Assembly (NCBI GenBank): GCA_913051905.1
Contig: CAJXBY010000042.1
Coordinates: forward strand, 1-16,904
Reading direction: 5' to 3'
Source: an uncultured Gammaproteobacteria bacterium
Lineage (GTDB): Bacteria > Pseudomonadota > Gammaproteobacteria > Arenicellales > UBA868
Length of the DNA: 16,904 nucleotides
This document shows, in pieces, positions 179-16,904 of this stretch (the stretch's first letter is position 1; each line of letters starts with the position of its first letter). The translations under genes and the position numbers were made by a program. A model generated the notes under the pieces. That model saw only the letters and a program-made list of their open reading frames with translations. It searched no databases and had not been told where the DNA came from.

Positions 179-817
179 GTGCACAGTAAGGTCTTGAAAC
201 TGCTCCTGCCAGTCATTGGAATGGGTCTTGTGATTCTGGCATCGAACACTTTGGTGCAGCATCCGGTCCAGGTCATTTTCTGGAGCGTTGATCTCGCTGG
301 GGTTCTCACCTGGGGCGCGTTCACTTACCCGGTCGCTTTTCTAGTGACTGACACGACCAATCGTGTTTTAGGAATGGGAGCTGCCCGTAAAGTAGTCTAT
401 GTCGGCTTTGTGTTGGGGATAACGCTGACGCTGGGTGCTGCTCTGGGTCTGGCCGGGAGTATTCAGACAGAAGGCACTTCACTATTAGATGCCCTGTTTC
501 TCGACGATAAGGCGTTTGCCCTCTTCCGTATCGGCCTGGCTTCTGGCGCTGCGTTCCTGGTGGCCCAGATGCTGGATATTCGGGTGTTCGACTGGTTGCG
601 CCAGGCCGACTGGTGGAAAGCGCCCGTCGCTTCTTCTTTCACCGGGTCATTGGTCGACACCGTGATCTTTTTCTTTCTTGCCTTTGCCGGTACCGGTGAG
701 CCCTGGGCGAGCTGGGCGATTGGGGACTTCGCTGCAAAGCTTCTGATGATCGCGCTGCTGTTGTACCCTTTCAGGGTCCTGGTCGGGCTGTGCTCTCGGC
801 AACCACCGTCTAGCTGA
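179..817 (+). CDS. yhhQ: YhhQ/VUT-family queuosine precursor transporter
   Basis: An inner-membrane protein of 212 residues with about six hydrophobic segments. It matches the YhhQ (DUF165/VUT) family, which imports 7-deazaguanine precursors of queuosine such as preQ0 and preQ1, and in some bacteria queuine or queuosine. Family features visible are SNTLVQHPV near residue 23, TWGAF then FLVTDTTNRVLG around 44-64 (compare TWGAFSFPFIFLATDLTVRIFG, recalled from E. coli YhhQ), MLDIRVFDWLRQ near 131-142, and SSFTGSLVDTVIFFF near 152-166. The start is GTG at 179: a stop lies at 131-133 and there is no in-frame ATG between. AGAAGA at 163-168 is a distant possible ribosome binding site. The ATG at 221 would cut into the first membrane segment. 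The 3' end overlaps the convergent psuG stop by 8 bp. The substrate here is inferred from family only; the neighbours are nucleoside genes, so a queuosine-like nucleoside is possible. No preQ1 riboswitch is recognisable upstream. Confidence 0.85.
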   Translation: MHSKVLKLLLPVIGMGLVILASNTLVQHPVQVIFWSVDLAGVLTWGAFTYPVAFLVTDTTNRVLGMGAARKVVYVGFVLGITLTLGAALGLAGSIQTEGTSLLDALFLDDKAFALFRIGLASGAAFLVAQMLDIRVFDWLRQADWWKAPVASSFTGSLVDTVIFFFLAFAGTGEPWASWAIGDFAAKLLMIALLLYPFRVLVGLCSRQPPSS

Positions 818-1715
818 GCGTGACAGCGAGGCGACCGGCAATAGAAGCGTTATTGAGGATCAAGGCAGTATTCACAGTCAGTGTAGCGCCTTTGGAAAGC
901 TCGGCGATGCGGTTTAACAGATAAGGTGTTACTGACTTACCGGTGATCCCACTTTCCTGGGACTCTGTCAAGGCAGTCTGTGTCCAGTTTTCCAGGTCGC
1001 AGAGTGCCACGGCAAGTGCTTCCGGTGGGGGAACCGCGAGTACCTCGCCACCCGAAAGGCCGAGCTCGCGACGGGTACGAATGATGTCCGCGGCTTCGCC
1101 TACGGTATCAACGAACTGATGCAGGCTAATACCTGATTGGGCAGAGAAGAACGCCGGCAACTCCTCGGTACCGAATCCCACCACGGGAACCCCAAGGGTC
1201 TCCAGCATTTCGATCGTTGCGGAGAGATCAAGCAGCGATTTGGCTCCCGAGCACACTACGGTGACGGGTGTTTGGGCGAGTTCTTGAAGGTCGGCGGAGA
1301 CATCCAGGGTACGGTTCCAGCCACGGTGAACCCCGCCTATACCACCCGTTGCAAAGACTGAGATGCCGGCTTTACGCGCGCAGATCATGGTTGCCGCAAC
1401 TGTCGTCCCACCGGTGAGTCCCTTGGCACAGGCAGTGGCAAGGTCGTGCCGGCTCAGCTTACGGGTTGTATCGTCCTGGCTGATACGCTCGAGCTCAGTC
1501 TCTTCGAGACCGATCCTGATCTGACCGTCAATCACCGCGATAGTGGCGGGGGTCGCGCCTTGCGCGCGAATCTGATCTTGGGCGTCTCTCGCGCAGGAGA
1601 GGTTCTCGGGAAAGGGCAGTCCGTGGGTGATCAGGGTGCTCTCGAGGGCGACCACGGGTTGATTATCGGCGAGTGCCGCTTCAACTCCGGAGGAGAGAGC
1701 AATCAGTTCAGTCAT
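810..1715 (-). CDS. psuG: Pseudouridine-5'-phosphate glycosidase PsuG
   Basis: Cytosolic enzyme that breaks the C-C glycosidic bond of pseudouridine 5'-phosphate to give uracil and ribose-5-phosphate. The 301-residue product has the usual family length. Visible family motifs are VALESTLITHG (catalytic-type Glu25), KLSRHDL at 86-92, GGTTVAATM at 102-110, FATGGIGGVHRG at 121-132, DVSADL at 138-143 (metal-ligand Asp142), and CSGAKSLLD with Lys159, equivalent to the Schiff-base lysine of the E. coli enzyme. The C-terminal TPYLL, GATLTVN and LILNNA blocks are also typical. The ATG at 1715-1713 overlaps the psuK 3' end by 8 nt. No Shine-Dalgarno sequence precedes it, so translational coupling to psuK is likely. 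Its product uracil would need a phosphoribosyltransferase or export, and neither is in the window. Confidence 0.97.
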   Translation of the reverse strand: MTELIALSSGVEAALADNQPVVALESTLITHGLPFPENLSCARDAQDQIRAQGATPATIAVIDGQIRIGLEETELERISQDDTTRKLSRHDLATACAKGLTGGTTVAATMICARKAGISVFATGGIGGVHRGWNRTLDVSADLQELAQTPVTVVCSGAKSLLDLSATIEMLETLGVPVVGFGTEELPAFFSAQSGISLHQFVDTVGEAADIIRTRRELGLSGGEVLAVPPPEALAVALCDLENWTQTALTESQESGITGKSVTPYLLNRIAELSKGATLTVNTALILNNASIAGRLAVTLS

Positions 1716-2640
1716 CGATCAGTTTTGCGGTCTGTTCCAGAGCGTGCCATGATAGCGCGGTTCGGGAGGGACCCGGTTGAGCTGCAATAATGCCAGCAGA
1801 GAGGCCCCAACGGGCAGCGGTTCGCAGACTGTGATCCTGTTCCAACGCGGCAATGGTCGCCGCCGCCAGCGCGTCTCCCGCACCGGAGAGATTTCCGGTC
1901 TCTGCGGTGGGTGCGGTGAGACTGCCGCACCCACCGCAGTCTGCCCAGGCGACACCTTGTGCACCGGCTGTGATCACCACCTGCTTGAGTCCTCGGTCTC
2001 TTAGACACTGTGCCTGCTGTAGCGCGTGCCGAAGCCCGCCGGACTCACGGCCACTGAGCACGGCCGCTTCGCAGGTGTTCAGAAAGAGTGTGTTCAGCCG
2101 CGTCAGGACCCCACCGAGCCGATGTGACTTAGCCGGTGACGTAGCCACCGCGTAGAGTCGGGATGAATCGAGCAGCATCGCCAGAGATTCCAGTGCCGGA
2201 CCCGAAAGATTGGAATCCACGCACCATGCATCCCAGGATTGGAGCTGCGCTTCATATTTCTGCCAGTATTCGGCGCTGAGCCGGTCGTAAATGGCCATAT
2301 CGGCCAGTCCAATCACAAGTTCTCCGTTGAGATCCAGAACGGCGGTGTAGCTTCCCGTGGGAGCTTCGCTGTCGAACTCCAGAGCAACCGGTTGGATGTC
2401 GTTGGATTCAAGGTGATCATACAGAGATTTACCATTTTTATCCCGACCTACCCGGCTGGTAAGACCCACATCGCTTCCGAGTCTCGACAGGGCAGTGGCG
2501 ACATTGAAAGCGACCCCACCCGGGATACCGGTTGTACAAACCGGATTTGATTCCCCTGAAACGAGCTTGTCCTGGCAACGCAAAATCGTATCCCAATGTA
2601 GTCCACCCAGACACAGGATTCGTGACTGTCTACAAGTCAT
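1708..2640 (-). CDS. psuK: Pseudouridine kinase PsuK (PfkB family)
   Basis: A 310-residue PfkB-fold sugar kinase that should phosphorylate pseudouridine at the 5' position with ATP, feeding PsuG. The N-terminal half has GGLHWD at 12-17 and the PfkB substrate-side block PGGVAFNVATALSRLG at about 40-55. The C-terminal half has the ATP-side GAGDALAAA block beginning at 253, with catalytic-type Asp256. The residues just before GAGD read GNLS instead of the common DTT or NVT. Assignment to pseudouridine rather than another nucleoside or sugar rests mainly on the overlapping psuG downstream, the same order as E. coli psuK-psuG. The start is ATG at 2640-2638 with an AAGAAG-like sequence about 7 nt upstream. 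The promoter should lie in the divergent 2641-2772 interval. Confidence 0.92.
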   Translation of the reverse strand: MTCRQSRILCLGGLHWDTILRCQDKLVSGESNPVCTTGIPGGVAFNVATALSRLGSDVGLTSRVGRDKNGKSLYDHLESNDIQPVALEFDSEAPTGSYTAVLDLNGELVIGLADMAIYDRLSAEYWQKYEAQLQSWDAWCVDSNLSGPALESLAMLLDSSRLYAVATSPAKSHRLGGVLTRLNTLFLNTCEAAVLSGRESGGLRHALQQAQCLRDRGLKQVVITAGAQGVAWADCGGCGSLTAPTAETGNLSGAGDALAAATIAALEQDHSLRTAARWGLSAGIIAAQPGPSRTALSWHALEQTAKLIDD

Positions 2641-3500: not shown

Positions 3501-3539
3501 AAAACACATCGAGAAGACGGTCAATTGATGAGGTCAGTC

Positions 3540-4493
3540 ATGGAGAGACGAAAAATCATCCTGGACTGTGATCCGGGGCATGATGATGCGGTAGCAATCC
3601 TGCTGGCACTGGCGTCTCCTGAGGAGCTCGAACTCTTGGGGATCACCTGCGTTGCCGGCAACGTTCCGCTGAACCTGACGCGGATGAATGCCTTACGCAT
3701 TTGTGAACTCGCAGAGCGGAATGAGGTTCCGATCTATTCTGGCTGTGAGCGGCCCATGGTCCGTACACTGGTCACGGCCGAAGCCGTACACGGTCAGTCA
3801 GGTCTGGACCTGCCGGATGGATCAACGCTGCCCGACCCGGACAAGGCGCTGGAAGCGGAGCATGCGGTTGACTTTATGATTGAGACCCTGATGTCGGAAC
3901 CGTCGGGCTCGGTCACGTTGTGCCCGATGGGACCATTGACCAACGTTGCTGTCGCTATGGTCCGCGCACCGGAGATTGTGCCAAGAATTGCCGAGATCGT
4001 GCTGATGGGCGGTGCCGCGATCAACCCAGGCAACGTGACGCCTGCAGCCGAGTTCAACATCTATGTTGATCCGCACGCAGCAGATGTGGTCTTCAGGTCT
4101 GGGGTACCGCTGGTGATGATGGGTCTGGACGTGACACACCAGGTGCTGGTGACTCCATCGCGCAAAGAAGCGATCCGGGAAACCGGTGGGCGGGTCTCCA
4201 ATGCTGTCGCCGATCTGCTGACGTTTTACTGCAGCTACGACCTGGCCAAATACGGAATGGAAGGTGGACCACTGCACGATCCCTGTGTGATTGCCCACCT
4301 GATCGACCCGACCCTCTTCACTCTCAAGCACGTGCATGTGGCCGTGGAAACGTCCTCCGAGCTGACTCTGGGCCAGACCGTGGCTGACTGGTGGACTGTC
4401 ACCGATCAGACACCGAACTGCCACGTTGCAGATCAGGTGGAAGATGATCGATTTTTCACACTGCTCAACGAACGCCTTGCCCGATTGCCGTGA
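3540..4493 (+). CDS. Ribonucleoside hydrolase, RihB/IUNH family
   Basis: A 317-residue inosine-uridine nucleoside hydrolase that should hydrolyse ribonucleosides to base plus ribose. The N-terminal calcium-site motif DCDPGHDDA supplies Asp9, Asp11, Asp15 and Asp16. VHGQSGLD near 84-91 carries the active-site His of group I enzymes. AEFNIYVDPHAA supplies the ribose-binding Glu and Asn. GGPLHDPC supplies the second His and the C-terminal metal-binding Asp. The pattern is close to E. coli RihB as I recall it (MEKRKIILDCDPGHDDA). That similarity supports ATG at 3540 as the start, with GAGG at 3530-3533 6 nt upstream, over the in-frame TTG at 3525 or ATG at 3528. The stop overlaps the ribokinase GTG by 4 nt, so the released ribose would be phosphorylated at once. 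Substrate preference cannot be read from sequence alone. Confidence 0.92.
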   Translation: MERRKIILDCDPGHDDAVAILLALASPEELELLGITCVAGNVPLNLTRMNALRICELAERNEVPIYSGCERPMVRTLVTAEAVHGQSGLDLPDGSTLPDPDKALEAEHAVDFMIETLMSEPSGSVTLCPMGPLTNVAVAMVRAPEIVPRIAEIVLMGGAAINPGNVTPAAEFNIYVDPHAADVVFRSGVPLVMMGLDVTHQVLVTPSRKEAIRETGGRVSNAVADLLTFYCSYDLAKYGMEGGPLHDPCVIAHLIDPTLFTLKHVHVAVETSSELTLGQTVADWWTVTDQTPNCHVADQVEDDRFFTLLNERLARLP

Positions 4494-5401
4494 GTGTAAT
4501 TGTCTTTGGATCCGCCAACGTGGATCTGGTGATGCCGGTTCTGGCTTTACCGGTTCCCGGCCAGACGGTGCTCACGGAGAGCTACCTGGCGGTTCCCGGG
4601 GGTAAAGGTGCCAACCAAGCGCTTGCTACACGGCGCGCAGGCGCTGAAGTGAATTTTGTCGGTGCGGTGGGAGACGATCCCCATGGTGAGTCAGCGCTGT
4701 CACTCCTGCAGGCCGAGGGAGTCGGTCTTGATGCGGTCAGAAAGGCTGACCGGCCGACGGGCTGTGCTGTCGTTATGGTTAATCCGACCGGTGAAAACTC
4801 CATTGTGGTCGCAAGTGGTGCCAATCAAAGTGTTGCGGCCAGCCAGGTCAGCGATACTTTACTGGACCAAGCTGATCTCTTGGTATTACAACAGGAGATT
4901 CCGGTGGAAGAGAACCTCCAGCTTGCTCTCCGCGCGACGAGAAAAGATCTTCAAGTCGTCTACAACCTGGCACCGGCGACGGACGTACCGGGGGAGCTCT
5001 TGGAGGCAGTCGATATGTTGGTGGTCAACGAAGTTGAAGCGGCATTCCTGGCGGGGGGTGATTCTGACCAAGACATGGCCGTGCTGGCCGAGGCCCTGGC
5101 AGGTGAACACGGTTTCAGCGTAATCATTACTCTGGGGTCAGACGGTGTGTTCGTTGCGCCCGGAGAAGGCGCCGGGAGTTTTTCTGTCGGTGCACCGGTT
5201 GTGCGTGTGACCGACACGACCGGAGCTGGAGACACCTTCACAGGCTATCTGGCAGCCCGTTTGGCCCAGGGCGATCTGGAACTGAAAAAGTGTATTTTGG
5301 AGGCCACCTGTGCTGCCTCACTTGCCTGTACCAAAACCGGCGCCCAGTCGGGAATCCCTTACGCGAGTGAGGTCGCTCGAAGCGCTTCGGTTGACATCTG
5401 A
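4490..5401 (+). CDS. rbsK: Ribokinase RbsK (PfkB family)
   Basis: A 303-residue cytosolic sugar kinase converting ribose plus ATP to ribose-5-phosphate. VFGSANVDLV supplies Asn10 and Asp12. The ribose-binding PGGKGANQA block is at 36-44 (Gly37, Gly38, Lys39, Asn42). DRPTGCAVVMV near residue 86 is the usual sheet contacting the sugar. DTTGAGDTFTG at 242-252 carries catalytic Asp248. These are ribokinase-type rather than adenosine-kinase-type signatures. The gene starts with GTG inside GTGA, overlapping the nucleoside hydrolase stop by 4 nt, a typical translational-coupling junction. The pairing indicates that ribose from nucleoside hydrolysis is the intended substrate, although deoxyribose or another pentose cannot be excluded. 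Confidence 0.93.
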   Translation: MSVIVFGSANVDLVMPVLALPVPGQTVLTESYLAVPGGKGANQALATRRAGAEVNFVGAVGDDPHGESALSLLQAEGVGLDAVRKADRPTGCAVVMVNPTGENSIVVASGANQSVAASQVSDTLLDQADLLVLQQEIPVEENLQLALRATRKDLQVVYNLAPATDVPGELLEAVDMLVVNEVEAAFLAGGDSDQDMAVLAEALAGEHGFSVIITLGSDGVFVAPGEGAGSFSVGAPVVRVTDTTGAGDTFTGYLAARLAQGDLELKKCILEATCAASLACTKTGAQSGIPYASEVARSASVDI

Positions 5402-5543: not shown

Positions 5544-6728
5544 ATGAGATTCTTTCGTATTCAACTGGTGGCGCTTCTGGTTGCTGCATTCGGGTTGATC
5601 GTAGGCCCGCTGAGCAGTACGGCGATAGCCGCCGGGAAGGTTGCCCTGGTGCTTGATGTAGGGGGTCGAGGTGACCTTTCATTTAATGATATGGGTTTTA
5701 AAGGTGCTGACGAGGCGGTTGCGAAGTTCGGCGTGGAACTGGTCGAGATCCAGAGCAACTCAGCTGCCGATTATTTGCCAAACCTGCAGAATGCAGCCCG
5801 CAGCGGGGAGTTCGATGTCATTGTCGCTGTTGGATTTCTGCTGGCTGATGCCATGGCGGAAGTTACCGATCAGTTTCCGGATCAGAAATTTGCCATCATT
5901 GATGTGACCTGGCTGGGCAAGCCCAACCTGATGGAGATTGGCTACGAGGAGAACAAAGGTTCCGCCATAGTGGGAGCGCTCTCTTCAATGGTGGCGGCTC
6001 ATTATGGTTATGACAAGATCGGTGTCGTGCTCGGAATAGAGATTCCGGTCCTGTATAAGTTTGAAGCCGGTTACCGCTACGGCATGCACTGGGGAAATGC
6101 CAAGTACGCCGAGAAAACAGGTAAGCAAGCCAACGTGGGTCTTCTGTGGACTTATACGGGCACATTTAGCGACATCGCTAAAGGCAAGGCCGCAACCGAA
6201 GCGATGCTAGCGCAGGGCGCGGGCCTGATCTACAACGTGGCTGGACCCCTTGGCATCGGTGATCTTGAGGCCATTACTGAGCACCTTGAAGCCAAGGGTA
6301 AATCCGCAGGCCCGCCCTTCATGATCGGTGTCGATGCCAACCAGGATTACCTAGGGGACGGTCATCGGGTGCTCGCCAGCATGATGAAGCGGGTCGATTT
6401 CGGCGTTTACAGCGCAATCGAAGCGGCGGTTAACGGGTCCTTCAAGGGCGGTGTCCAGATTCTGGGTCCGCATAATGGTGGTATTGCCATGTCGGGCAAA
6501 CAGGATCTGGCAGACTTCATCCAGTTCGGCATCAAGGGGGGTGCGATCAGTGCGTCCGACAGCAGCCAGATTACCAGTAACTGGGTGGCGATGCGTAACG
6601 ATATCCCGGGCTGGATCTGGGATGCGGTTGCAGACCTTCAGGCGCAAATCAGTGACGGAACGGCTGAAGTGCCTTGCGGCTGGTGTCCCGATACCATTGG
6701 TGATATCCGCGCCAAGTATCCGGACTGA
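5544..6728 (+). CDS. BMP-family periplasmic nucleoside-binding protein of an ABC importer
   Basis: Substrate-binding protein of the basic-membrane-protein (BMP/PnrA) family, whose characterised members bind nucleosides. A signal peptide spans about residues 1-30 (hydrophobic core followed by STAIAA before GKVALVLD). There is no lipobox cysteine, so a soluble periplasmic protein is expected, unlike the lipoproteins of spirochaetes and Gram-positives. The mature part begins with the family block GRGDLSFNDMGFKGADEA and contains FDVIVAVGFLLADA, GSAIVGALSSMVA and FMIGVDANQDYL, all BMP-typical positions around the ligand cleft. At 394 residues it is somewhat long for the family. The C-terminal tail contains CGWC at 378-381, and those are the only cysteines in the protein. 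The two permease genes follow after a strong hairpin. The nucleoside substrate is inferred from family plus surrounding catabolic genes. Confidence 0.93.
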   Translation: MRFFRIQLVALLVAAFGLIVGPLSSTAIAAGKVALVLDVGGRGDLSFNDMGFKGADEAVAKFGVELVEIQSNSAADYLPNLQNAARSGEFDVIVAVGFLLADAMAEVTDQFPDQKFAIIDVTWLGKPNLMEIGYEENKGSAIVGALSSMVAAHYGYDKIGVVLGIEIPVLYKFEAGYRYGMHWGNAKYAEKTGKQANVGLLWTYTGTFSDIAKGKAATEAMLAQGAGLIYNVAGPLGIGDLEAITEHLEAKGKSAGPPFMIGVDANQDYLGDGHRVLASMMKRVDFGVYSAIEAAVNGSFKGGVQILGPHNGGIAMSGKQDLADFIQFGIKGGAISASDSSQITSNWVAMRNDIPGWIWDAVADLQAQISDGTAEVPCGWCPDTIGDIRAKYPD

Positions 6729-6850: not shown

Positions 6851-7921
6851 TTGCGTGCCTTAATCCGTCAGTTGAATCCCGTTGCGGAGTCGGTCATCGC
6901 CGGGTTGATCGGGATTGCCATCGGGGCAGTGATCATGCTGGTGTACGGCTATGATCCCGTTGCGGCCTATATTTCCTTGTTCCGTGGGAGTTTCGGCAGC
7001 ATCTACAGCTGGGCCGAGTCACTGGCTAATGCCACGCCATTGATTCTCACGGCACTGACTTTTGCCGTCGCCATGCGCGGTGGCCTGTTCAACATCGGTG
7101 CGGAAGGTCAGCTTTATATTGGCGCACTTGCCGCCGTAGCCGTCAGTCTGATTCATCTGCCTTATCCTTTGCACGTGGTTGTCGCACTCCTGGCGGCCAT
7201 GCTGGCCGGAATGATCTGGAGTCTGCCGGTTGCTTTTCTCAAGCTGGGCCGTGGTGTACATGAGGTGATCTCGACCATCATGTTCAACTGGATCGCACAC
7301 TTCTTTGCGTTTTATCTCATCGCAAACGTACTCACCGATCCGAAGCGGGGCGAGAAGACGATCAGTATCGCCGAGACATCACGGTTGGCAAGGGTCCTGC
7401 CTGATGCCAGTCTCAATTTCGGTCTGCTGGTTGCAGTGATTTCGGCTGTTGTGGTGTTGTTTCTTCTCTGGCGAACCACAGGAGGGTTTGAATTGCGGGT
7501 AAGCGGTTTCAACCCGGATGCTGCCCGCTATGCAGGGATCAGCCGCCGCCGACAGATTTTGACGGTTTTTCTCATCGGCGGTGCTACCGCCGGTCTTGCC
7601 GGCGCAGTTCAGGTGATGGGCCGGCCGCCTACCTACGCCTTGATGAGTGGCCTGCCGCAGTTCGTGAACCTCGGATTCGACGGGATCGGTGTGGCCATGA
7701 TCGGGCGGAACCATCCCATCGGAATCATCTTTGCGGCGATCTTTTTTGGAGGGCTGCTGGTCGGAGGTCGCATTATGCAGTTCTCGCCCGGCGTCCCCCT
7801 GGAAATGGTTCGGGTGGTCGAGGGGGTGATCATCCTGGCGCTGGCTGTACCTGAACTGAAGCGTATTTTGGTCCGTATCGGTTTGCGATTGAAACGCAGG
7901 AGGCAGAGCCATGGCGCTTGA
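6851..7921 (+). CDS. ABC nucleoside importer permease 1 (BMP/NupP type)
   Basis: A 356-residue integral membrane permease of the branched-chain/ribose-type family (BPD_transp_2), with about eight to ten hydrophobic segments. Family signposts are LANATPLILTALTFAVAMRGG then LFNIGAEGQLYIGA around 57-93, where the EGQ segment is the cytoplasmic coupling region to the ATPase. Later come LKLGRGVHEVISTIMFNWIA and GFELRVSGFNPDAARYAGI. The start must be non-ATG: TAA closes the frame at 6845-6847, and the first ATG (6935) falls within the first membrane segment. TTG at 6851 is chosen and TTG at 6872 is the alternative. No clear ribosome binding site is seen. The 3' end overlaps permease 2 by 11 nt. Confidence 0.92.
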   Translation: MRALIRQLNPVAESVIAGLIGIAIGAVIMLVYGYDPVAAYISLFRGSFGSIYSWAESLANATPLILTALTFAVAMRGGLFNIGAEGQLYIGALAAVAVSLIHLPYPLHVVVALLAAMLAGMIWSLPVAFLKLGRGVHEVISTIMFNWIAHFFAFYLIANVLTDPKRGEKTISIAETSRLARVLPDASLNFGLLVAVISAVVVLFLLWRTTGGFELRVSGFNPDAARYAGISRRRQILTVFLIGGATAGLAGAVQVMGRPPTYALMSGLPQFVNLGFDGIGVAMIGRNHPIGIIFAAIFFGGLLVGGRIMQFSPGVPLEMVRVVEGVIILALAVPELKRILVRIGLRLKRRRQSHGA

Positions 7922-8813
7922 GCATCTCTGGGGTATTCTCTTTATCTCGCTGCACGCGATGGTCCCTATTACGCTGGCTGCCATCGGTGAGACAATCGAG
8001 GAGTCCGCCGGTCTGTTTAACATCGGTCTGGAAGGTATCCTGTTGTTGAGTGCACTGGCCGGCGCAGTGGGTGCCGAAGCCTCCGGCAGTGCGGTGGTTG
8101 GACTGATGACGGGAATGGGGACTGGTGCCCTGATCGGGTTGCTGTTCGGTGTGGTCAACACGTACTGGAAGGGAAGCCAGTTGATTACCGGGGTTGGAAT
8201 CAACCTTTTTGCTTTTGGTTTTGTCGCGTTCATGCTGATCACGTTGGGCGCACCCGGTTTTCACAGCGTACCGCGTGACGTGCAGGTCAAGCTGATCCCC
8301 CTCGGCGTTGGAAGCCTGAGCCCACTGGTGCTGGTGACGGTGATCCTGGCAATTGGGGTTTACTGGTTGTTGTACCGTACCCAACTCGGAATCCGAATTC
8401 GGGCAGTGGGTGAGAACCCGGCTGCGGCAGACGTTGCCGGTATCCGGGTCAATGCGCTTCGTTTGGGCACGGCGGTTGCGGCAGGTCTGCTGGCAGGTCT
8501 TGCGGGTGCCTACCTCAGCGTTGACTGGTTCGGTGCTGTAACCAAGGAGATCACTGCGGGTCGTGGCTTTATTGCACTGGCAACAGTGGTGTTCAGCGGA
8601 CTCAATCCCTTGCTCGCTTTATTGGGGGGATTTATTTTCGGCTTCTTCGATGGGTTGGCAACCTGGGTTGCCACCTACCCCGGAGTCAAAAAGCTGATTC
8701 CTTGGCAGTTTGTCGCGATGGCACCGTATGTCGTGACGTTGCTGGTCGTGGCTGGAGCCATTGGCAGGGCCCGCTTCCCCAAGGCTTTAGGGGTTCCTTA
8801 CTTGCGGGAGTGA
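7911..8813 (+). CDS. ABC nucleoside importer permease 2 (BMP/NupQ type)
   Basis: A 300-residue membrane permease, the shorter partner of the preceding gene and from the same BPD_transp_2 superfamily. Typical blocks are MVPITLAAIGETIEESAGLFNIGLEG (here spanning about residues 17-42, with the EG-containing coupling loop) and TQLGIRIRAVGENPAAADVAGI in the middle, which is the classic cytoplasmic loop contacting the nucleotide-binding subunit. SVDWFGAVTKEITAGRGFIALA follows. The ATG at 7911 has AGGAGG about 6 nt upstream, inside the permease 1 gene, and overlaps that gene by 11 nt, so the two are co-translated as a heterodimer. The gene ends 18 bp before the stop of the convergent ATPase gene. 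No terminator is visible in that short gap. Confidence 0.93.
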   Translation: MALEHLWGILFISLHAMVPITLAAIGETIEESAGLFNIGLEGILLLSALAGAVGAEASGSAVVGLMTGMGTGALIGLLFGVVNTYWKGSQLITGVGINLFAFGFVAFMLITLGAPGFHSVPRDVQVKLIPLGVGSLSPLVLVTVILAIGVYWLLYRTQLGIRIRAVGENPAAADVAGIRVNALRLGTAVAAGLLAGLAGAYLSVDWFGAVTKEITAGRGFIALATVVFSGLNPLLALLGGFIFGFFDGLATWVATYPGVKKLIPWQFVAMAPYVVTLLVVAGAIGRARFPKALGVPYLRE

Positions 8814-8831: not shown

Positions 8832-10379
8832 TCAGGCAGCCCGTTCGAGCGTTCCTCCACCTGCCATCCAGCGGCCGAGCTGTTCCCGGTCGGCACCCTG
8901 TGCCTCGACCATACCGGCCATTGCACCCTGGAAAATTACACCGATCCGGTCTGACAACGACATGATCTCGTCCAGATCTTCAGAGACCACGAGAATGGCG
9001 GAACCGTTCTCGCGCAACTCCAGAAACAACTCCCATGTGTGCCGAATGGCCCTGGCATCAAGCCCTTCAGTGGGATGCGACGCAATGATTACCGGCGGCT
9101 TACGCCAGGTTTCACGCCCCAGGATCAACCGCTGAATATTGCCGCCTGAAAGGATCCGGGACTCGGTCTGCCACAGGTCCGGTACCAGCGCATTGAACCG
9201 CGAGACGATGTCCTCGGTATGCCGGTTGATTTCACGGGGTTTAAGGATGCCGCGGCTGGCAAACGGGGTGGTTCGGTAATCCTTGAGTATGACGTTCTCG
9301 GCTACGAACATCGATTCAACGATACCGATCTCCCGCCGCTGTTCCGGGATGTGGGCAACGCCTTGTTCAATAAAAGCCCTGGGTGTTTGATGGGTCATGT
9401 CCCTGCCGAGAATTCGGATCTCGCCCTGTTTTGCAGGGCGAAGACCGGTGAGGCACTCGATGAGTTCGCTCTGACCGTTTCCGGCAACGCCGGCAATGCC
9501 AAGAATCTCACCCTTGCGAACTTCTAGATTGATCGAGGGTGTGCCTGCTTGGTCCTCACCGGTCTGGGGGATCAGATCGATGACCTGGATCGCTTTGTCC
9601 TCTGACACGACCGGGGGTCTTGCCATATAGTCTGGTACCACCTCACCGAATGTACGGCGGGTGAGTTCTTCCTCATTGGTCTCGCTGACCGGCTGGGTGC
9701 CGTGAGTTTTACCGAGTTTGAGGACCGTGACCCGGTCAGAGACTGCAAACACTTCACGCATCTTGTGGGTGATAAAGACGATGCCTTTACCTTCGCCGGT
9801 CATGGCCCTCAGAACGTCAAAAAGGTGATCCGCTTCTCCGGGGGTCAGCAGCGAGGTCGGTTCATCCAGCAGCAGGACCTCAGGTTCGTGATAGAGCACT
9901 TTGAGAATTTCCGCCCGTTGCTGCTCGCCGGCAGAGAGCGTTTCAACTCGAGCTCTGGGGTCCACCTTAAGCTCATATCGTTCGGCGAGCTCGGCCAGTT
10001 TCTTCTCCACCGCCTTTATGGGGAAGGAAAAGCTTGCTGATTTCAGCCCGACCATCACGTTCTCCGCCACGGTAAAGGCTGGCACAAGCATCAGCTCCTG
10101 GTGGACCATGGCGATGCCGTGGGCGAGTCCGTCCCGGGGTGAAACGAGTTCTACAGGTTGGCCCTTGATCCTGATTTCTCCGGCAGTTTTACCGTAGTAA
10201 CCGGATAGGATATTGGCGATGACCGTTTTCCCGGCGCCGTTCTCACCAAGCAGGGTATGCACCTCTCCGGCGCGGACTTCAAAGTCAATGTGATCCAGGA
10301 TCAGGTGTTCCCAGACGCCTGGGAAACCCTTGGAGATGCCACGCGCCTGAAGCAGAATGTCGCCGGGTGTTGGGGTCAT
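8832..10379 (-). CDS. ABC nucleoside importer ATPase with two nucleotide-binding domains
   Basis: A cytoplasmic ATPase of about 515 residues of the RbsA/NupO type, with two fused nucleotide-binding domains. Domain 1 has Walker A GENGAGKT near residues 45-52, Q-loop HQE near 94, signature LSAGEQQ near 149-155 and Walker B LLLDEPT near 170-175. Domain 2 has a degenerate P-loop GVAGNGQSEL, signature LSGGNIQ, and a Walker B region reading ASHPTEGLD, in which the catalytic Glu is replaced. Such degeneracy is normal for the second half of this family. The ATG at 10379 is preferred; a TTG at 10388 has AGGA 7 nt upstream and would add three residues (MDS). It is the only ATPase for the adjacent permeases, but it lies on the opposite strand, facing them tail to tail, so it must have its own promoter. 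Confidence 0.94.
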   Translation of the reverse strand: MTPTPGDILLQARGISKGFPGVWEHLILDHIDFEVRAGEVHTLLGENGAGKTVIANILSGYYGKTAGEIRIKGQPVELVSPRDGLAHGIAMVHQELMLVPAFTVAENVMVGLKSASFSFPIKAVEKKLAELAERYELKVDPRARVETLSAGEQQRAEILKVLYHEPEVLLLDEPTSLLTPGEADHLFDVLRAMTGEGKGIVFITHKMREVFAVSDRVTVLKLGKTHGTQPVSETNEEELTRRTFGEVVPDYMARPPVVSEDKAIQVIDLIPQTGEDQAGTPSINLEVRKGEILGIAGVAGNGQSELIECLTGLRPAKQGEIRILGRDMTHQTPRAFIEQGVAHIPEQRREIGIVESMFVAENVILKDYRTTPFASRGILKPREINRHTEDIVSRFNALVPDLWQTESRILSGGNIQRLILGRETWRKPPVIIASHPTEGLDARAIRHTWELFLELRENGSAILVVSEDLDEIMSLSDRIGVIFQGAMAGMVEAQGADREQLGRWMAGGGTLERAA

Positions 10380-10485
10380 TGAATCCAAAAGTGATTCCTG
10401 AGGTTATTGAATCTCGCTGATCGTGTCAGTAGATCGTTGAGACCGGGGCCTATCGTCCATCCACATTGCAATCGGATCGGCCTAC

Positions 10486-10491: not shown

Positions 10492-10567
10492 CAAAGACCA
10501 GGTATGGCAATAGTCTGCCGGTATTCCTGTGACTTTTAAGGTTAACAGTCGGGACGACGCACCAAAC

Positions 10568-11395
10568 ATGAAACGCCATGAATCCGCGGGTGAGATGATC
10601 CGCCAGGCTGCTGCCGGCCGCCTGCCTAGAGTCGGCCTGATCCTGGGAAGTGGTCTGGCAGAGTTGGCAAAACGGATCGAAAACGCGGTTGTGATCTCCT
10701 ATCAGGATCTGCCGGGCTATCCGGCGACCACTGTCGAGGGCCATGTCGGGCGCTTGGTGATTGGCGACTGGGCGGGCATCCGGGTGGCCTGTATGCAGGG
10801 GCGTTTTCATGTGTATGAAGGGTACGACCCCTCTGAGTTCATAACACCGATCAGAGCCTTGCAGGCAGCGGGCTGTGAGCTTCTGCTGGTGACCTGTGCT
10901 GCCGGCAGCTTGAGAGAGGAAATGCCGCCAGGCAGCCTGATGGCGTTGACAGACCACATCAACTGGTCGGGAATCAGCCCCCTAGCGGGACCAAACGACG
11001 CGGACATTGGGCCTCGTTTTTTGGATCTGAACAATGCCTACGATCCAGGGCTGCGTTCGTTACTGCAGGATGCCGCGCAGGAAACCGGGGTCATCTTACA
11101 AGAGGGTGTTTACATCTGGTGTTTGGGGCCCAATTTTGAGACGCCGGCCGAAATCAGGGCTTTTAGGATGCTTGGGGCAGACGTCGTCGGCATGTCGACG
11201 GTCCCGGAGTGCCTGATCGCACGGCATTGCGGCATGCAGGTGGCTGCGGTTTCAGTGATCACCAATCTCGCGGCTGGGATGCAGCCTGAGCTCTTCCATG
11301 CAGAGACCCTGGCGGCTGGAGGAAGGGCAACGCCAAAACTGGGAAACCTTATTGAATCGTTTCTTGGGGGTCTTAGTGTAGCTGGATTTACATGA
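10568..11395 (+). CDS. Purine nucleoside phosphorylase, trimeric (inosine/guanosine) type
   Basis: Cytosolic enzyme splitting purine ribo- and deoxyribonucleosides with phosphate into free base and (deoxy)ribose-1-phosphate. The 275-residue product fits the trimeric PNP class. With this start, landmarks are LILGSGL (phosphate-site Ser28), GRFHVYEGY (Arg79, His81), GPNFETPAE (Glu191, purine-binding), GMSTVPE (Met209, Ser210) and VITNLAAG (Asn233). One deviation is VTCAAG at 108-113, where most relatives have VTNAAG. The ATG at 10568 is preferred because the in-frame GTG at 10529 would add 13 residues of unlikely sequence; neither has a clear ribosome binding site. It is divergent from the ABC ATPase. 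The ribose-1-phosphate made would be used by DeoB downstream. Confidence 0.92.
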   Translation: MKRHESAGEMIRQAAAGRLPRVGLILGSGLAELAKRIENAVVISYQDLPGYPATTVEGHVGRLVIGDWAGIRVACMQGRFHVYEGYDPSEFITPIRALQAAGCELLLVTCAAGSLREEMPPGSLMALTDHINWSGISPLAGPNDADIGPRFLDLNNAYDPGLRSLLQDAAQETGVILQEGVYIWCLGPNFETPAEIRAFRMLGADVVGMSTVPECLIARHCGMQVAAVSVITNLAAGMQPELFHAETLAAGGRATPKLGNLIESFLGGLSVAGFT

Positions 11396-11561: not shown

Positions 11562-11579
11562 CCGCTAAGGGTTTAGCGG
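11562..11579 (+). other. Hairpin just upstream of the methyltransferase start
   Basis: CCGCTAA (11562-11568) and TTAGCGG (11573-11579) form a perfect 7-bp stem with a GGGT loop, ending 9 nt before the methyltransferase ATG. No Shine-Dalgarno sequence lies between the hairpin and the start. The only one nearby, AAGGG, is within the hairpin and loop (11567-11571). It could control translation or be the end of an upstream transcript. The rest of the 193-nt gap 11396-11588 is AT-rich with nothing else recognised. Confidence 0.45.
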
Positions 11580-11588
11580 AACAATCAA

Positions 11589-12419
11589 ATGAAAATATAC
11601 AGATTATTTTCTCTTTTTCGGAAAATATTTTTCTCGTTGTATAAACGAATTCGTACGGCCATTTATGTGTGGACCAATGATCAAGAGAAAATATTTCAAA
11701 ACGAGTTAGCCCGATACCGAGATCTGGGCCTTGATTATAGAATGGGTCTGCGGGTTCTAGAAAAAACGATCAATGAAAAAATCGACTGTATGGATGTATC
11801 TAGTCATATGGTACTTTTTTCAGCACTTAGTTTGTCGCCATCATATTTTTCGGACATATTAGAAATTGGGACTTATAAAGGGGAGACCAGCAATCTATTG
11901 TCTAGACTATTCCCATCGGGAAATATTACGACAATTGATCTGCCAGCCTCAGACCCGATATTTTTTAATAGTTATTTGGGTGCTAGAGGAAATGCAAACC
12001 GACAGAAGATCTACACAGAAATATTGTCTCAGAACCTCACTCCGGACAACATTCACTTCATTGAAACCAATAGTTTCTTTCTTTTGTCGGTCTTAGATGG
12101 AAAAAAATTTGATTTGATTTGGCTAGATGGTGGTCATTTGTATCCTGAAATTGCATGGGATGCCTGCCAGGCATACTGGTTGTGTAAACCTGGGGGACTA
12201 ATCATCTTCGATGATGTGGCTCTCAATTCAAATACTCGGACAACGGATAAACTTTCCGGGGCAGTACATGAAGTGGTGACGTATATTTCAAGTCGTACTA
12301 ACTGCAAGGTGAGTTATCTTCTCAAGAGGCTTGATCCTAAATACAATTCTGTCCCGAGTCTTCAAAAGCACATTGCCGTACTTGAGAAGTGCATGGCTCC
12401 AGATATTGGAAAAGAATAA
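11589..12419 (+). CDS. Class I SAM-dependent methyltransferase (Methyltransf_24-like), AT-rich
   Basis: A 276-residue protein with a Rossmann-type methyltransferase domain in its middle. Motif I is DILEIGTYKGETS at 89-101, the acidic residue after strand 2 is ITTIDLP (Asp117), and motif IV-like LIWLDGGHLYPEIAWD is at 176-191. Strand 5 reads GGLIIFDDV at 202-210. The DGGH and FDD pattern is like Methyltransf_24 proteins, several of which act on sugars or cell-surface glycans; the substrate here is unknown. The N-terminal 30 residues are rich in Lys, Arg and aromatics (LFSLFRKIFFSLYKRI) and may bind membrane. Base composition is strikingly low in GC compared with both flanks (14 of 60 in line 11581-11640), and codon use is A/T-ending, suggesting recent transfer. 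It has no evident link to nucleoside metabolism. Confidence 0.8.
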   Translation: MKIYRLFSLFRKIFFSLYKRIRTAIYVWTNDQEKIFQNELARYRDLGLDYRMGLRVLEKTINEKIDCMDVSSHMVLFSALSLSPSYFSDILEIGTYKGETSNLLSRLFPSGNITTIDLPASDPIFFNSYLGARGNANRQKIYTEILSQNLTPDNIHFIETNSFFLLSVLDGKKFDLIWLDGGHLYPEIAWDACQAYWLCKPGGLIIFDDVALNSNTRTTDKLSGAVHEVVTYISSRTNCKVSYLLKRLDPKYNSVPSLQKHIAVLEKCMAPDIGKE

Positions 12420-12940
12420 AGAATTTAGAAGACAGATAACTGCTTTGACTAATGAGAGAACTAGAAAAAGGAAAGTAATTTATTGGTTAGGTGGTTCCGA
12501 ACAGTCGTATTTGCTTACTGACGACCGATATCTTGTTAGTGTTAAATTGACTGTTCTTTGTTTTGGCCACTGCTCTGGCTTTCAAAAGGATATACTGATT
12601 TTTTAATGATGCGCCGTCAGTTATTCTGTTCTACCTTTCTTGCCCGATTCTTCAGTCGCTAAGTCGGTCCAGGAGTTAATCAGTCTTCATTCTCTCCCTA
12701 TTAAATTAAACTAGGTCGGTGTAGGCTAAAGAATTTCTGGATTGTTGTAGTAACCTAATGACGCGATCTGACGTAAAGAGAGTGGTCTTGGTTCTGAATG
12801 TCTATGTAATACTCATTACTCCGATAAGAAGCGACTGCCGTAATTGGTTACGCTAGTACATTTAAGAATGTTACGAATGTTCGAACAAAGTGAAAATCTT
12901 GTGCTACTTTCTTTTATCGAGAATCTAGGCCTGCTTTAAG
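12420..12940. other. AT-rich intergenic stretch without a convincing gene
   Basis: About 520 nt between the methyltransferase and deoA, lower in GC than the surrounding genes. The only open frames are short, lack start signals or family resemblance, or overlap known genes. Noted within it are an imperfect 15-nt direct repeat (12659-12673 and 12711-12725, 12 of 15 identical, around GTCGGT), a 7-nt tandem GAATGTT at 12866-12872 and 12875-12881, and a 10-bp palindrome at 12878-12887. No tRNA, IS end or clear terminator was found. The deoA promoter should be here, but I could not place it confidently. Confidence 0.6.
12878..12887. promoter_or_regulatory. Perfect palindrome TGTTCGAACA, candidate operator upstream of deoA
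   Basis: TGTTCGAACA is a 10-bp perfect palindrome whose end is 53 nt before the deoA GTG. It overlaps a tandem GAATGTT repeat (12866-12881). The position suits a repressor site for the deo operon. It resembles the outer bases of the E. coli DeoR operator (TGTTAGAA) only loosely, so the regulator is unknown. Confidence 0.3.
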
Positions 12941-14275
12941 GTGACCAAGCCGTTCCTCGCTCAGGAGGTGATCCGTCGCAAGCGGGAAGGCCAGGTGCTG
13001 GGCAGCGATGAGATCAATCGGTTTATTCGGGCGCTGGCAAGCGGCAGCCTCAACGATGCCCAGGTTGGTGCTTTTGCGATGGCGGTCTACCTGCAAGGGA
13101 TGACCCCGGAAGAGTGCGCAGTCCTGACTATTGCCATGCGGGACTCCGGCGAAGTACTGCACTGGGACAGAGAGCGCCTGCGGGGGCCCGTGATCGATAA
13201 GCATTCGACCGGCGGGGTGGGGGACTGTGTCAGCCTGATGTTGGCACCCATGCTGGCAGCCTGTGGTGCACACGTGCCGATGATCTCCGGCAAAGGTCTG
13301 GGCCACACCGGCGGCACACTGGATAAGCTCTCGAGTATTCCAGGCTACGAAATTCAGCCGTCACTTACGGTCTTTGTCGAGGTCGTCGAGAGTACAGGAT
13401 GTGCGATTATCGGTCCGACACCTGATGTCGCCCCTGCTGATGGACGACTTTATGCCGTACGGGACGTTACCGCGACAGTTGAATCAGTGCCATTGATTAC
13501 CTCCTCGATCCTGTCAAAAAAGCTGGCTTCGGGTCTGGACGCACTGGTAATGGACATTAAGACCGGCAATGGGGCGGTGACCCCAGAACTGAATGCGGCC
13601 AACGCGCTCGCCCGCAGCCTTCTGGATACGGCCAGCGAGACCGGATTAAAGACCTCGGCAGTGATCACAGACATGAACCAACCATTGGCGCCCGTAATCG
13701 GTAATGCGTTGGAAGTCACTGAGGCTGGCGCTTACCTGACCGGGCAGCGTCAGGATCCCCGTCTCCACCAGGTGGTTCTCGCACTGGGCTCAGAGCTGCT
13801 GGTAACAGCTGGTATCACACCAGATCAAGATCAGGCCCGGCGGAAACTCGAGAAGGTCCTGGCCGAGGGTTCTGCGGCAGAGTGTTTCAACAAAATGGTG
13901 GCCTCACTCGGCGGTCCATCGGGATTTCTGGAGCAGACTGATCAGTATCTACCCAAGGCGCCTGTGATAGTCGAGGTCTCTGCCAAGACCAGCGGCGTCG
14001 TATCGTCGATCAATACTCGGGCACTGGGTCTAGCCTTGCTGCGGCTAGGCGGTGGGCGACAGAAGCCCGATGACGATGTGGACCCCGTTGTGGGGTTCGA
14101 CCAGTGCCGGCGCGTCGGAGAGGAAGTGGATCGTGGAAGCCTGCTGTGCCGAATTCACGCCCGGGATCCCGATCAAGCGGCATCCGTCCTATCGGATGTG
14201 CAACGCGCTATTGTTGTCAGTGATCGTACGCCGAAGAGTTCACCCGTGGTTGTTTCCGTTCTGGAGGGGACCTGA
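12941..14275 (+). CDS. deoA: Thymidine phosphorylase DeoA
   Basis: A 444-residue cytosolic phosphorylase converting thymidine or deoxyuridine plus phosphate to base and 2-deoxyribose-1-phosphate. The N-terminus [13 protein letters not shown] matches E. coli DeoA (FLAQEIIRKKRDG, recalled), which supports GTG at 12941 as the start. [10 protein letters not shown] near 86-95 is the phosphate-binding glycine-rich loop. [17 protein letters not shown] near 112-128 corresponds to the family signature, with Lys where most have Arg (SGRGL). [16 protein letters not shown] supplies the thymine-binding Arg, and [11 protein letters not shown] the Ser and Lys partners. The long form with C-terminal VDPVVGF fits DeoA rather than the shorter pyrimidine phosphorylase Pdp. 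It is the first gene of the right-hand operon; its stop overlaps the deoB ATG by one base (TGATG). Confidence 0.96.
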
Positions 14276-15528
14276 TGGCGCGCGCCATCATGCTGGTGCT
14301 GGATTCCCTCGGTATCGGTTCAAGTGCCGATGCGGGTCGTTTTGATGACCGTGGCGCTGATACCTTCGGACACATTGCAGAAGCCTGTATGCGCCGTGAA
14401 GGTGAATCTGACAGCGTCTTTCACGGGCCGCTGCAAATTCCGGTGCTGTCGGAACTTGGGCTGGTTCATGCGGCGGCCGCCAGTCGGGGCAGGTGGCCCG
14501 CTGGCCTGCCCCGAATCGATCCCATCGGTGCCTGGGGCTATGCGGTGGAGGTCAGTCGCGGCAAGGACACACCGAGCGGGCACTGGGAAATGGCGGGAGT
14601 ACCCGTCGATTTTGAATGGGGTTATTTCCCCGACACTCTGCCGAGTTTTCCCCAGGCGCTGACCGATCAGTTGATCGATCAGGCAGACCTTCCAGGCCTC
14701 CTTGGAAATTGTCATGCCTCAGGCACAGCGATCATCGACCAGCTGGGAGAGCAGCACCTGGAATCGGGCCAGCCAATTGTCTATACCTCTGCAGACAGCG
14801 TATTTCAAATTGCCGTCCACGAGGAACGATTTGGTCTCAAGCGGCTGTACGATATTTGCGCGATAGCCCGGAAACTCGTCGATGAATGGACAATCGGTCG
14901 GGTGATTGCAAGGCCCTTCACGGGCAGTTGCCGGGGCGGGTTCGTCCGCACCGGAAACCGCCGGGACTACACGACCCCGCCGCCGGAACCGACGCTGCTG
15001 GACCGGATGGTTGAAGATGGCGGTGAGGTGGTATCGGTGGGCAAAGTCGCCGATATCTTTGCAGGACAAGGCGTGAGTCGTACGATCAAGGCGAATGGCA
15101 ACGAGGAACTGTTTGATGCGACACTGGATGCCCTCGCCACCACGGGGAATCATGCCCTGATATTTACCAATTTTGTCGACTTTGACATGCTGTATGGCCA
15201 CCGCCGGGACACGGTGGGGTATGCCAGGGCATTGGAGGCGTTCGATCGAAAACTGCCGGAACTTCTCGCTGTTCTGGAGAAAGGGGATCTCGTCTTGGTC
15301 ACGGCTGATCATGGATGTGACCCGACCTGGCCAGGCCATGACCACACCCGCGAGCACGTTCCAGTACTGGCGTTCGGTCCTGGAGTGAAGTCGGTGTCAC
15401 TCGGCGAGCGCAAGACTTTTGCGGACATGGGTCAGACGCTTGCAGAACATCTTGACCTGGATCAACTGGATGCCGGAGAGTCATTCCTGGGGCATATCTT
15501 CGAACGGGAGATCCCATGCCAGAATTAA
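14275..15528 (+). CDS. deoB: Phosphopentomutase DeoB
   Basis: A 417-residue metalloenzyme of the alkaline phosphatase superfamily, interconverting (deoxy)ribose-1-phosphate and the 5-phosphate. It therefore links PNP and DeoA products to central metabolism. The first metal Asp10 is in [14 protein letters not shown]. The phosphorylated Thr99 is in [29 protein letters not shown] supplies the next metal-site Asp and His. [21 protein letters not shown] supplies the Asp-His pair and the terminal metal His. Length and motif order match E. coli DeoB. The ATG at 14275 shares one base with the deoA stop, and the 3' end overlaps the dioxygenase gene by 13 nt. Confidence 0.97.
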
Positions 15529-16409
15529 TGCAAACGCAGGTCGATTCGACAGGTCGATTGTCTAACAATGCGGTGGATAGCTGGGTGGATAATGGCTGCT
15601 TGTTGATCGAAGATTTCATCTCGAAACGGGCTTGCGAAGCTCTTCTCCTCACGATCGACCGACTGGTGGAAGCATTCGAGCCGGATGACGTCAAAACGGT
15701 TTTTTCGACCACCTCTCAGGTTCACGCAGCAGCGAATTATTTTGAGAGCTCCGGAGACAAGATTCGATTTTTCTTTGAAGATGGCGCGTTGGATTCGACT
15801 GGGCAATTGACGTGTGCCAAGGAACATGCACTGAACAAAATCGGACATGCGTTGCACGACCTCGACCCGGACTTTGAGCGTTTCTCATACGATCCCCGTC
15901 TCGCAGTATTGGCGAGTCAACTCGGCCTCGCGGATCCTCTGCTCCTGCAATCCATGGTGATTTTCAAGCAGCCCCGTATCGGCGGTGAAGTAGTGTGGCA
16001 TCAGGACAGTAGCTTTCTCTACACCGAACCTTTGAGTGTGCTTGGTTTCTGGTTTGCCCTGGAGGATGCCACTCTTGAGAACGGGTGTATGTGGGCTATA
16101 CCCGGAGAGCATCTTAATGGCCTGCGCCAGCGGTTTCACAGGGTTGATGGTGCACTCACGATGACGGACCGGAAAGAGATGGCCACATTTGACCCGGCAC
16201 AGGGTGTTCCTTTGGAGGTTTCAAAGGGCACCTTGGTTGTACTGCACGGGTCATTGCCGCACTACAGTGGACCCAATCACAGTGATCGGTCGCGCTGTGC
16301 GTTTACGCTGCACGCTATCTCTGCGAGTGCCCGGTATCCAGGCGACAATTGGCTCCAGAGGGGACCCGATATGCCGCTACGTCCTCTGTCACCAGAGCGC
16401 CCAACTTGA
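15516..16409 (+). CDS. PHYHD1-like phytanoyl-CoA-dioxygenase-family oxygenase
   Basis: A 297-residue Fe(II)/2-oxoglutarate-dependent oxygenase of the PhyH family with a complete active site. His162 and Asp164 (WHQDSS) and His249 (LPHYSGPN) form the iron-binding facial triad. Arg260 (SDRSR), 11 residues later, should bind 2-oxoglutarate; human PHYH has the same 11-residue spacing. [30 protein letters not shown] and DNWLQ are very like human PHYHD1 as I remember it, so this is the PHYHD1-type branch rather than a true phytanoyl-CoA hydroxylase. ATG at 15516 is inside deoB (13-nt overlap) and the stop overlaps the add start by 4 nt, so it is co-translated with nucleoside enzymes. The substrate is unknown; context suggests a nucleoside, deoxynucleoside or pentose derivative. 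Confidence 0.9.
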
Positions 16410-16904
16410 CGGTACTCCCAAAAGTCGAGCTTCATTGTCATCTGGAAGGTGCTGCGGGACCTGCGTTGATCCGGCGATTGGCTCGGCGTAACGACATTAC
16501 TCTGCCTGACACCTTGTTCACCCCAGATGACCAGTTCGCGTGGACCGATTTTCCCAGCTTTCTGGAAGCCTACGATCAAGCCAGCCGGGCGATCTCGACG
16601 GCAGCCGATTATCGTGATGTGACTTACGAGTATCTTGCAGAGTGTGCCAGGGAAACTGCGATTTATGTCGAGCTCATGTCATCGCCCGATCATGCCGCGG
16701 CCGCAGGATTGTCCTATGAAGATCATTTAGACGGCATTCTGCAGGGTATCGACGATGCTGAACGCGATTACGAAATCACAGGTCGCTTGATCGTCACCTG
16801 TGTTCGGCATTTCGGTCCCGCCCGCGCTTTAAAGGTTGCGGAAGAGGTTCGCAGTAATCCCCATCCTTATGTGGTCGGGTTCGGTATGGGGGGTGATGAG
16901 AACG
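16406..16904 (+). CDS. add: Adenosine deaminase, N-terminal part (cut by window end)
   Basis: The frame is open from the TTG at 16406 to the window end (about 166 residues). It begins [16 protein letters not shown], with the zinc-binding HxH of the adenosine/AMP deaminase family about 12 residues in, and later DFPSFLEAYD, IYVELMSSPDH, GRLIVTCVRHFGP and VVGFGMGGDEN, the last being the family GDE-type block. The pattern resembles the proteobacterial Add form (VELHCHLEGA...GFGLAGEE). The TTG overlaps the dioxygenase TGA as TTGA; another in-frame TTG at 16349 would add 19 residues unlike the family. Deamination of adenosine or deoxyadenosine gives inosine or deoxyinosine for PNP. The catalytic His and Asp of the C-terminal half are beyond the window, and the related adenine deaminases cannot be fully excluded. 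Confidence 0.93.
   Translation, partial: MTVLPKVELHCHLEGAAGPALIRRLARRNDITLPDTLFTPDDQFAWTDFPSFLEAYDQASRAISTAADYRDVTYEYLAECARETAIYVELMSSPDHAAAAGLSYEDHLDGILQGIDDAERDYEITGRLIVTCVRHFGPARALKVAEEVRSNPHPYVVGFGMGGDEN

Follow-up and report, generated by a model that had tools for sequence, protein, structure and literature searches.

Why should a gene of the PhyH family lie within a run of nucleoside breakdown genes? The question is raised by the gene at 15516..16409 (+ strand), here called phyh, of the window, which is the whole stretch of 16,904 nucleotides analyzed here. The reading frame starts with ATG, encodes a PHYHD1-like Fe(II)/2-oxoglutarate oxygenase of 297 amino acids, and has a PhyH domain (PF05721) at residues 25 to 260 (E value of 1.1e-44; 153.7 bits, cutoff of 22). 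It overlaps deoB, which ends at 15528, by 13 nt, and its TGA stop codon (16407-16409) lies in a 4-nt overlap with the TTG-started add; both overlaps had been given in the preliminary description of this DNA, and the coordinates agree. The deoA and deoB genes overlap by 1 nt, at 14275, and a 4-nt overlap between phyh and add is also found in Hongsoonwoonella zoysiae (locus L072). Judging from these overlaps, phyh may well be translationally coupled with its neighbors. The deoA-deoB-phyh-add neighborhood is more than chance, since it recurs in other genomes. Read from sequence, the phyh product is very probably a cytoplasmic 2'-O-methyl nucleoside demethylase of the PHYHD1 type, acting as the feeder step of a nucleoside-catabolism operon.

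Sequence comparison places phyh close to human PHYHD1, and its identity as a PHYHD1-like protein, claimed in the preliminary description, was borne out by both sequence and fold. Human PHYHD1 (PDB 2opw) was the top sequence match (E value of 1.2e-66; 228.3 bits), versus only 34.8 bits for human PHYH (2a1x), which showed 19% identity by fold alignment. A Foldseek search with an AlphaFold model of phyh, a moderate model built from 19 sequences (pLDDT of 74.5), placed 2opw and 3obz on top with a TM score of 0.83 and 43 and 42% identity, and the other 48 chains listed showed 15 to 22% identity. The model falls below a pLDDT of 50 at residues 64 to 74, the region of the PHYHD1-specific helix, and a helix is predicted at phyh residues 68 to 73, within the stretch that matches the extra cavity helix (human Q56 to L71), likewise with a pLDDT of <50. 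This stretch is present and conserved among PHYHD1-like sequences, and gaps interrupt it in the other PhyH paralogs, at S64 in 50/57 and at H70 in 44/57. A function as phytanoyl-CoA 2-hydroxylase (PHYH) was considered and rejected, the nearest solved relative being PHYHD1 by 228.3 versus 34.8 bits. A virus-borne origin gained no support: 37 viral-contig stretches matched a peptide pattern, and none of them encoded a relative by tblastn.

The active site had been described as intact, and indeed all four residues are present. The HQD codons, which include those for the Fe(II) ligands His162 and Asp164, lie at 15999..16007, the Fe(II)-binding His249 codon at 16260..16262, and the 2-oxoglutarate-binding Arg260 codon at 16293..16295, all on the + strand. 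In an alignment of the window and 79 related loci, each of H162, D164, H249, and R260 was found in 80/80 PHYHD1-like sequences, and the four align with the Fe/2-oxoglutarate positions of the 57 other PhyH paralogs, where they were kept in 57/57, 56/57, 57/57, and 57/57, respectively.

2'-O-Methylation is a frequent modification of RNA, and ordinary salvage enzymes act poorly on the 2'-O-methyl nucleosides that come from degraded RNA. An enzyme acting on these compounds was discovered via a functional screen in a study whose main focus is animals (PMC12709175; NAR, December 2025, 53[22], gkaf1379), and the parts of that paper on which we draw give the reaction as 2'-O-methyl nucleoside to nucleoside plus formaldehyde. 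FJS, a metagenomic bacterial oxygenase, demethylates free 2'-O-methyl nucleosides with 2-oxoglutarate and releases formaldehyde; PHYHD1 proteins from human, mouse, zebrafish, fly, and a fungus carry out the same demethylation, as do plant and viral PHYH-like proteins, and the active bacterial relatives are FJS and proteins from Sphingomonas, Poribacteria, and Acidisoma (PMC12709175). According to the same parts of the paper, relatives from several groups tolerate a wide range of bases, nucleotides and RNA are not substrates of these demethylases, human PHYH is inactive, and FJS formed only trace hydroxylated phytanoyl-CoA. Dialysis inactivates the published relatives. The PHYHD1 branch had been described as having no settled bacterial role, a statement that is overtaken by the demethylation published for relatives, bacterial ones included (PMC12709175). 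By analogy, phyh would carry out the same reaction as these relatives.

Docking in human PHYHD1 placed K102, H105, Q139, and W277 on the ribose, with S154 at purine bases and F161 stacking on the base (PMC12709175). By alignment, the ribose-docked residues correspond in phyh to Lys108 and His111 (15837..15848, + strand), Gln145 (15948..15950, + strand), and Trp279 (16350..16352, + strand). Each of the four was found in 80/80 readable PHYHD1-like sequences (the window plus 79 loci; L045, with a frame of 7 residues, enters neither the residue counts nor the tree). At the same positions, the 57 other PhyH paralogs kept K108, H111, Q145, and W279 in 5, 1, 7, and 7 sequences, respectively, and all four in 0/57. 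Human F161 corresponds to F167 in phyh, a position that is Phe in 60/80 and Tyr in 20/80, and human S154 corresponds to V160, at a variable position. The retention of the four docked residues therefore supports the same substrate class, and does not fix the base preference.

The whole window is a nucleoside-catabolism island. On the - strand lie psuG, for pseudouridine-5'-phosphate glycosidase (810..1715; PDB 4gij, E value of 1.2e-81; PF04227, E value of 3.9e-118), which gives the island a second enzyme for modified nucleosides, and, overlapping psuG, a PfkB kinase gene (1708..2640; PF00294, E value of 1.2e-34) that is probably psuK, a name taken from its position; ribokinase and pseudouridine kinase models match it below their cutoffs. 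This pair (810-2640), divergent from the other genes, adds pseudouridine breakdown to the island. Adjoining psuG is a gene for a Vut_1/queuosine-precursor-type transporter (179-817; over the TIGR00697 cutoff), which likewise has a link to modified RNA bases; none was found near phyh in the best 80 loci. A 3'-5' exonuclease domain protein (RNase_T; 2773-3396) is possibly an RNA-degrading source of nucleosides, and its gene was not found in the best 80 loci. Then come, on the + strand, a nucleoside hydrolase (3525..4493; PF01156, E value of 1.4e-105), which is RihA/UriH-like and below the cutoffs of those models (NF052221, 334.8 bits, cutoff of 450), and a second PfkB kinase (4490..5401; PF00294, E value of 1.5e-51), probably a ribokinase by name. 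A BMP-type ABC uptake system spans 5544-10388 and comprises a BMP/PnrA-type substrate-binding protein with a probable role in nucleoside uptake (5544..6728, + strand; PF02608, E value of 2.6e-39), ABC permeases 1 (6851..7921, + strand; PF02653, E value of 7.5e-39) and 2 (7911..8813, + strand; PF02653, E value of 3.2e-36), and a double ABC ATPase (8832..10388, - strand; two PF00005 stretches). Purine-nucleoside phosphorylase (PNP) is encoded at 10529..11395 (+ strand; NF006054, 350.7 bits, cutoff of 218). Between PNP and deoA lies a Methyltransf_24 gene (11589-12419), not found in the best 80 loci by tblastn; the G+C content is 0.40 to 0.42 at 11201-12800 and 0.50 to 0.61 elsewhere in the window, and this stretch with its gene looks like a foreign insert. 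The phyh gene follows deoA, for thymidine phosphorylase (12941..14275, + strand; TIGR02643, 614.7 bits, cutoff of 570.7), and deoB, for phosphopentomutase (14275..15528, + strand; NF003766, 540.7 bits, cutoff of 256). The last gene, add, for adenosine deaminase (16406..16904, + strand; PF00962, E value of 2.5e-32), has NF006848 as its best NCBIfam match, a partial one, and runs off the end of the window; its start is likely the TTG at 16406, with an in-frame TTG at 16349 as the alternative.

The gene had also been called an orphan, a label that does not hold among its relatives. The locus set consisted of the best 80 of at least 555 confirmed stretches. Hypothesis-free clustering of the neighbors in these best 80 loci, the window included, gave deoA (25 loci) and deoB (17 loci) as the commonest; NupC transporters, nucleoside hydrolase, and cytidine deaminase were among those that came next. 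A directed search of the same best 80 loci used a core set of deoA, deoB, deoC, PNP, nucleoside hydrolase, cdd, add, and nupC within 2 kb of phyh. At least one core gene was found in 41/80 loci and at least two kinds in 31/80, counts that are lower bounds because some contigs are short. The totals were 32 loci for deoA, 24 for cdd, 23 for deoB, 17 for nucleoside hydrolase, 16 for nupC, 14 for PNP, 12 for add, and 11 for deoC. In 36 of the 41 linked loci, the nearest core gene was on the same strand and within 100 nt, with a median gap of 21 nt. In the other 39 of the best 80 loci, the available stretch contained no core gene.

Linkage was compared with that of other members of the family in the same genomes, using 57 of the 140 other PhyH matches listed (up to 3 from any one genome; 23 of the 30 genomes contributed). 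For three of these controls (L097, L100, and L111), a PHYHD1-like gene is some 20 kb away. A core gene accompanied 19/30 PHYHD1-like genes versus 1/57 other PhyH genes (Fisher P value of 1.3e-10), the single linked control having a nucleoside hydrolase (L105). With the 23 control-yielding genomes alone, the figures were 12/23 versus 1/57 (Fisher P value of 2.5e-7); both P values ignore kinship between genomes. The markers for nupC, cdd, deoC, and add were drawn from the loci themselves, which biases the comparison toward the loci over the controls. A wider sample of 289 genomes was drawn evenly from the class of genome G005 (Pelagibius, Alphaproteobacteria), and a match at an E value of 1e-50 or better was found in 29/289. 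Core-gene linkage was seen in 15/29 of these and in 14/28 without G005, a center genome picked for its linkage; some of the sample loci are contigs among the best 80. For 11 of the linked loci, flanks of about 1.5 kb sufficed to show the core gene; the remaining 4 emerged from wider flanks of the other 18 loci, where phyh runs into BMP-ABC-cdd-PNP-deoC. Among the remaining 14/29, one had a BMP-ABC system alone and 13 had none. The class of G017 (Woeseiaceae, Gammaproteobacteria) yielded a match in no more than 2/274 genomes, the center included, so that this sample is uninformative on linkage.

At least four gene orders recur, across Alphaproteobacteria, Gammaproteobacteria, and Actinomycetota, with uptake by BMP-ABC or NupC. 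The alphaproteobacterial order is BMP-ABC-cdd-PNP-(deoC)-deoA-(deoB)-phyh, then add or 5'-nucleotidase. Woeseiaceae and related Gammaproteobacteria have phyh-deoA-nupC-nucleoside hydrolase, with cdd-preA-preT-hydantoinase on the opposite strand. The actinomycetotal order is BMP-ABC-phyh-add, and L056 and L162 have phyh-nucleoside hydrolase beside psuG. That two unrelated uptake systems are in use speaks for an association formed, or retained, on more than one occasion. The unlinked members, mainly from Kiloniella, Myxococcota, Acidobacteriota, SAR324, and some Rhodospirillales, lie beside unrelated genes; one immediate neighbor was taken from each of ten such loci, and these genes showed no common theme. 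The tree was used for nearest rows and groups only, being a single build with unsettled bootstrap, a midpoint root, and an out-group on very long branches.

Some further neighbors were observed. In three alphaproteobacterial loci (L040, L073, and L176), phyh is immediately preceded, on its own strand, by an aldehyde dehydrogenase gene; a role as formaldehyde sink was considered and dropped, the protein being alpha-ketoglutaric semialdehyde dehydrogenase-like, below that model's cutoff. In Woeseiaceae-type loci, a TRZ/ATZ-family amidohydrolase is encoded near phyh on the opposite strand (L025, L028, L029, L037, L038, L041, L046, L047, L053, L066, L068, L077, L079, and L080); the L068 protein has a lipoprotein-like N terminus, and the amidohydrolase is perhaps an exported nucleoside deaminase. 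In the H. zoysiae locus L072, an open reading frame at 8738-9931, which we take to be like the proline racemase family, lies between deoB and phyh, and the same deoB-phyh gap is present in L078.

The demethylase that we propose would work as follows. Fe(II) held by H162, D164, and H249 would, with 2-oxoglutarate on R260, activate O2, and K108, H111, Q145, and W279 would position a free nucleoside (Am, Gm, Im, Cm, or Um). The 2'-O-methyl carbon would be hydroxylated, with succinate and CO2 as by-products, and the hemiacetal would collapse to formaldehyde and the plain nucleoside. Add would then take the freed adenosine, PNP would take inosine and guanosine, and the nucleoside hydrolase, together with the PfkB kinase, would handle uridine; DeoB would process the ribose-1-phosphate further, and cytidine would go to the cytidine deaminase encoded in the same operon of many relatives. 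The methylated nucleosides presumably enter through the BMP-type ABC transporter. The oxygenase would be placed among these linked enzymes because they make plain nucleosides useful. The preliminary description had suggested that a dead-end derivative is converted into a substrate of a neighboring enzyme; the reaction type is now published (PMC12709175, in the parts used here), and the proposed partners have shifted, since DeoA is annotated as thymidine phosphorylase and Add, PNP, and the nucleoside hydrolase are therefore better candidates for the next step than DeoA.

Counting against this demethylase are the loci without a core gene (39/80 and 14/29, in the stretches seen), the V160 in place of human S154, the moderate structure model, and the fact that phyh is the sole operon gene specific for 2'-O-methylation. 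The neighborhood is compatible with any nucleoside substrate, and the operon-linked branch might oxidize another free nucleoside, whether deoxy-, N-methyl, or otherwise modified, or a breakdown product, with 2'-O-methyl activity minor. A fungal 2'-hydroxylase acts on a deoxynucleoside; deoA, whose product usually acts on deoxynucleosides, is the most frequent neighbor (32/80 in the best 80 loci), and human S154 is replaced by V160 in phyh. We nevertheless consider this improbable, as the four ribose-docked residues are invariant (80/80) and 2'-O-demethylation with broad base tolerance is common to relatives of several groups (PMC12709175, as far as the parts used extend). The earlier suggestion that a nucleoside is oxidized is supported where it named a modified nucleoside, a modified ribonucleoside being favored here, and deoxynucleosides and pentose phosphates are without support. 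Far less probable still is that phyh is a phytanoyl-CoA hydroxylase-like or small-molecule hydroxylase in the operon by chance. Pfam and automatic names do point to phytanoyl-CoA dioxygenase, and about half of the homologs are unlinked, but human PHYH is a far weaker match (34.8 versus 228.3 bits), linkage stands at 19/30 versus 1/57, and only trace hydroxylated phytanoyl-CoA was reported for FJS (PMC12709175, same parts). The preliminary description had proposed a survey of homolog neighborhoods for recurrent nucleoside genes, and these do recur, in 41/80 of the best 80 loci and in the 19/30 versus 1/57 of the control comparison; the scatter without linkage that it had held against its own idea was found for about half of the homologs and not for the rest, in the stretches seen.

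A third alternative concerns purpose rather than reaction, namely, that the main role is protective, with 2'-O-methyl nucleosides removed where they inhibit phosphorylases or become faulty nucleotides, and not catabolic feeding. Harm from 2'-O-methyl nucleosides has been proposed for animals (PMC12709175, in the parts on which we draw), and many bacterial homologs lie outside catabolic operons. The linked partners, however, are uptake and breakdown enzymes, including preA, preT, and hydantoinase in the Woeseiaceae-type loci, and therefore indicate nutrition over protection. We regard a mainly protective role as unlikely, though the likeliest of the three alternatives; protective and nutritional roles are mutually compatible.

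Returning to the feeder demethylase, we lean toward a broader reading, in which PHYHD1-type oxygenases (for 2'-O-methyl nucleosides) and the PsuG/PsuK of the window (for pseudouridine) would feed one uptake and breakdown operon, a dedicated bacterial modified-nucleoside pathway, with the operon assembled several times around the oxygenase. If true, the repeated assembly explains the purpose of bacterial PHYHD1-family members. The enzyme kind was recently described, and its recurrent operon is apparently undescribed: no paper describing these phyh operons was found in the open-licence literature, and a term search of the text of PMC12709175 returned no passage on gene neighborhoods. The operons are the likely physiological setting for bacterial demethylases, and they permit annotation of proteins most of which, where named, are now called phytanoyl-CoA dioxygenase or hydroxylase. 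Culturable operon-bearing hosts are available, such as Stappia, Dongia, and Pelagibius relatives; Stappia sediminis (L078), H. zoysiae (L072), and Dongia deserti (L018) are examples of culturable relatives with the operon.

Among known systems, human PHYHD1 (2opw and 3obz) with its animal orthologs is the closest solved relative of phyh in sequence and fold, and shares the Fe/2-oxoglutarate site and the four ribose-docked side chains; phyh differs in being bacterial, in lying within a nucleoside uptake and breakdown operon, and in having V160 for S154. FJS and the other bacterial PHYH-like demethylases, compared here by published description, belong to the same Pfam family, with Tyr at the position of human F161 where phyh has Phe (PMC12709175, parts used here). 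Bacterial 2'-O-methyl nucleoside catabolism is also represented by the RK9NH, LbNH, and AgNH hydrolases, which have aldolase and ribokinase genes nearby, and a 2018 paper puts forward a gene cluster in which a hydrolase and an aldolase would break down 2'-O-methyluridine (PMC6278475, seen in part). According to that source, these hydrolases remove the base and leave 2'-O-methylribose, whereas phyh would take the methyl group first. PsuG/PsuK are unlike phyh in cleaving a C-glycosidic bond, by unrelated chemistry, and resemble it in providing, at the other end of the window, a dedicated entry step for a modified RNA nucleoside.
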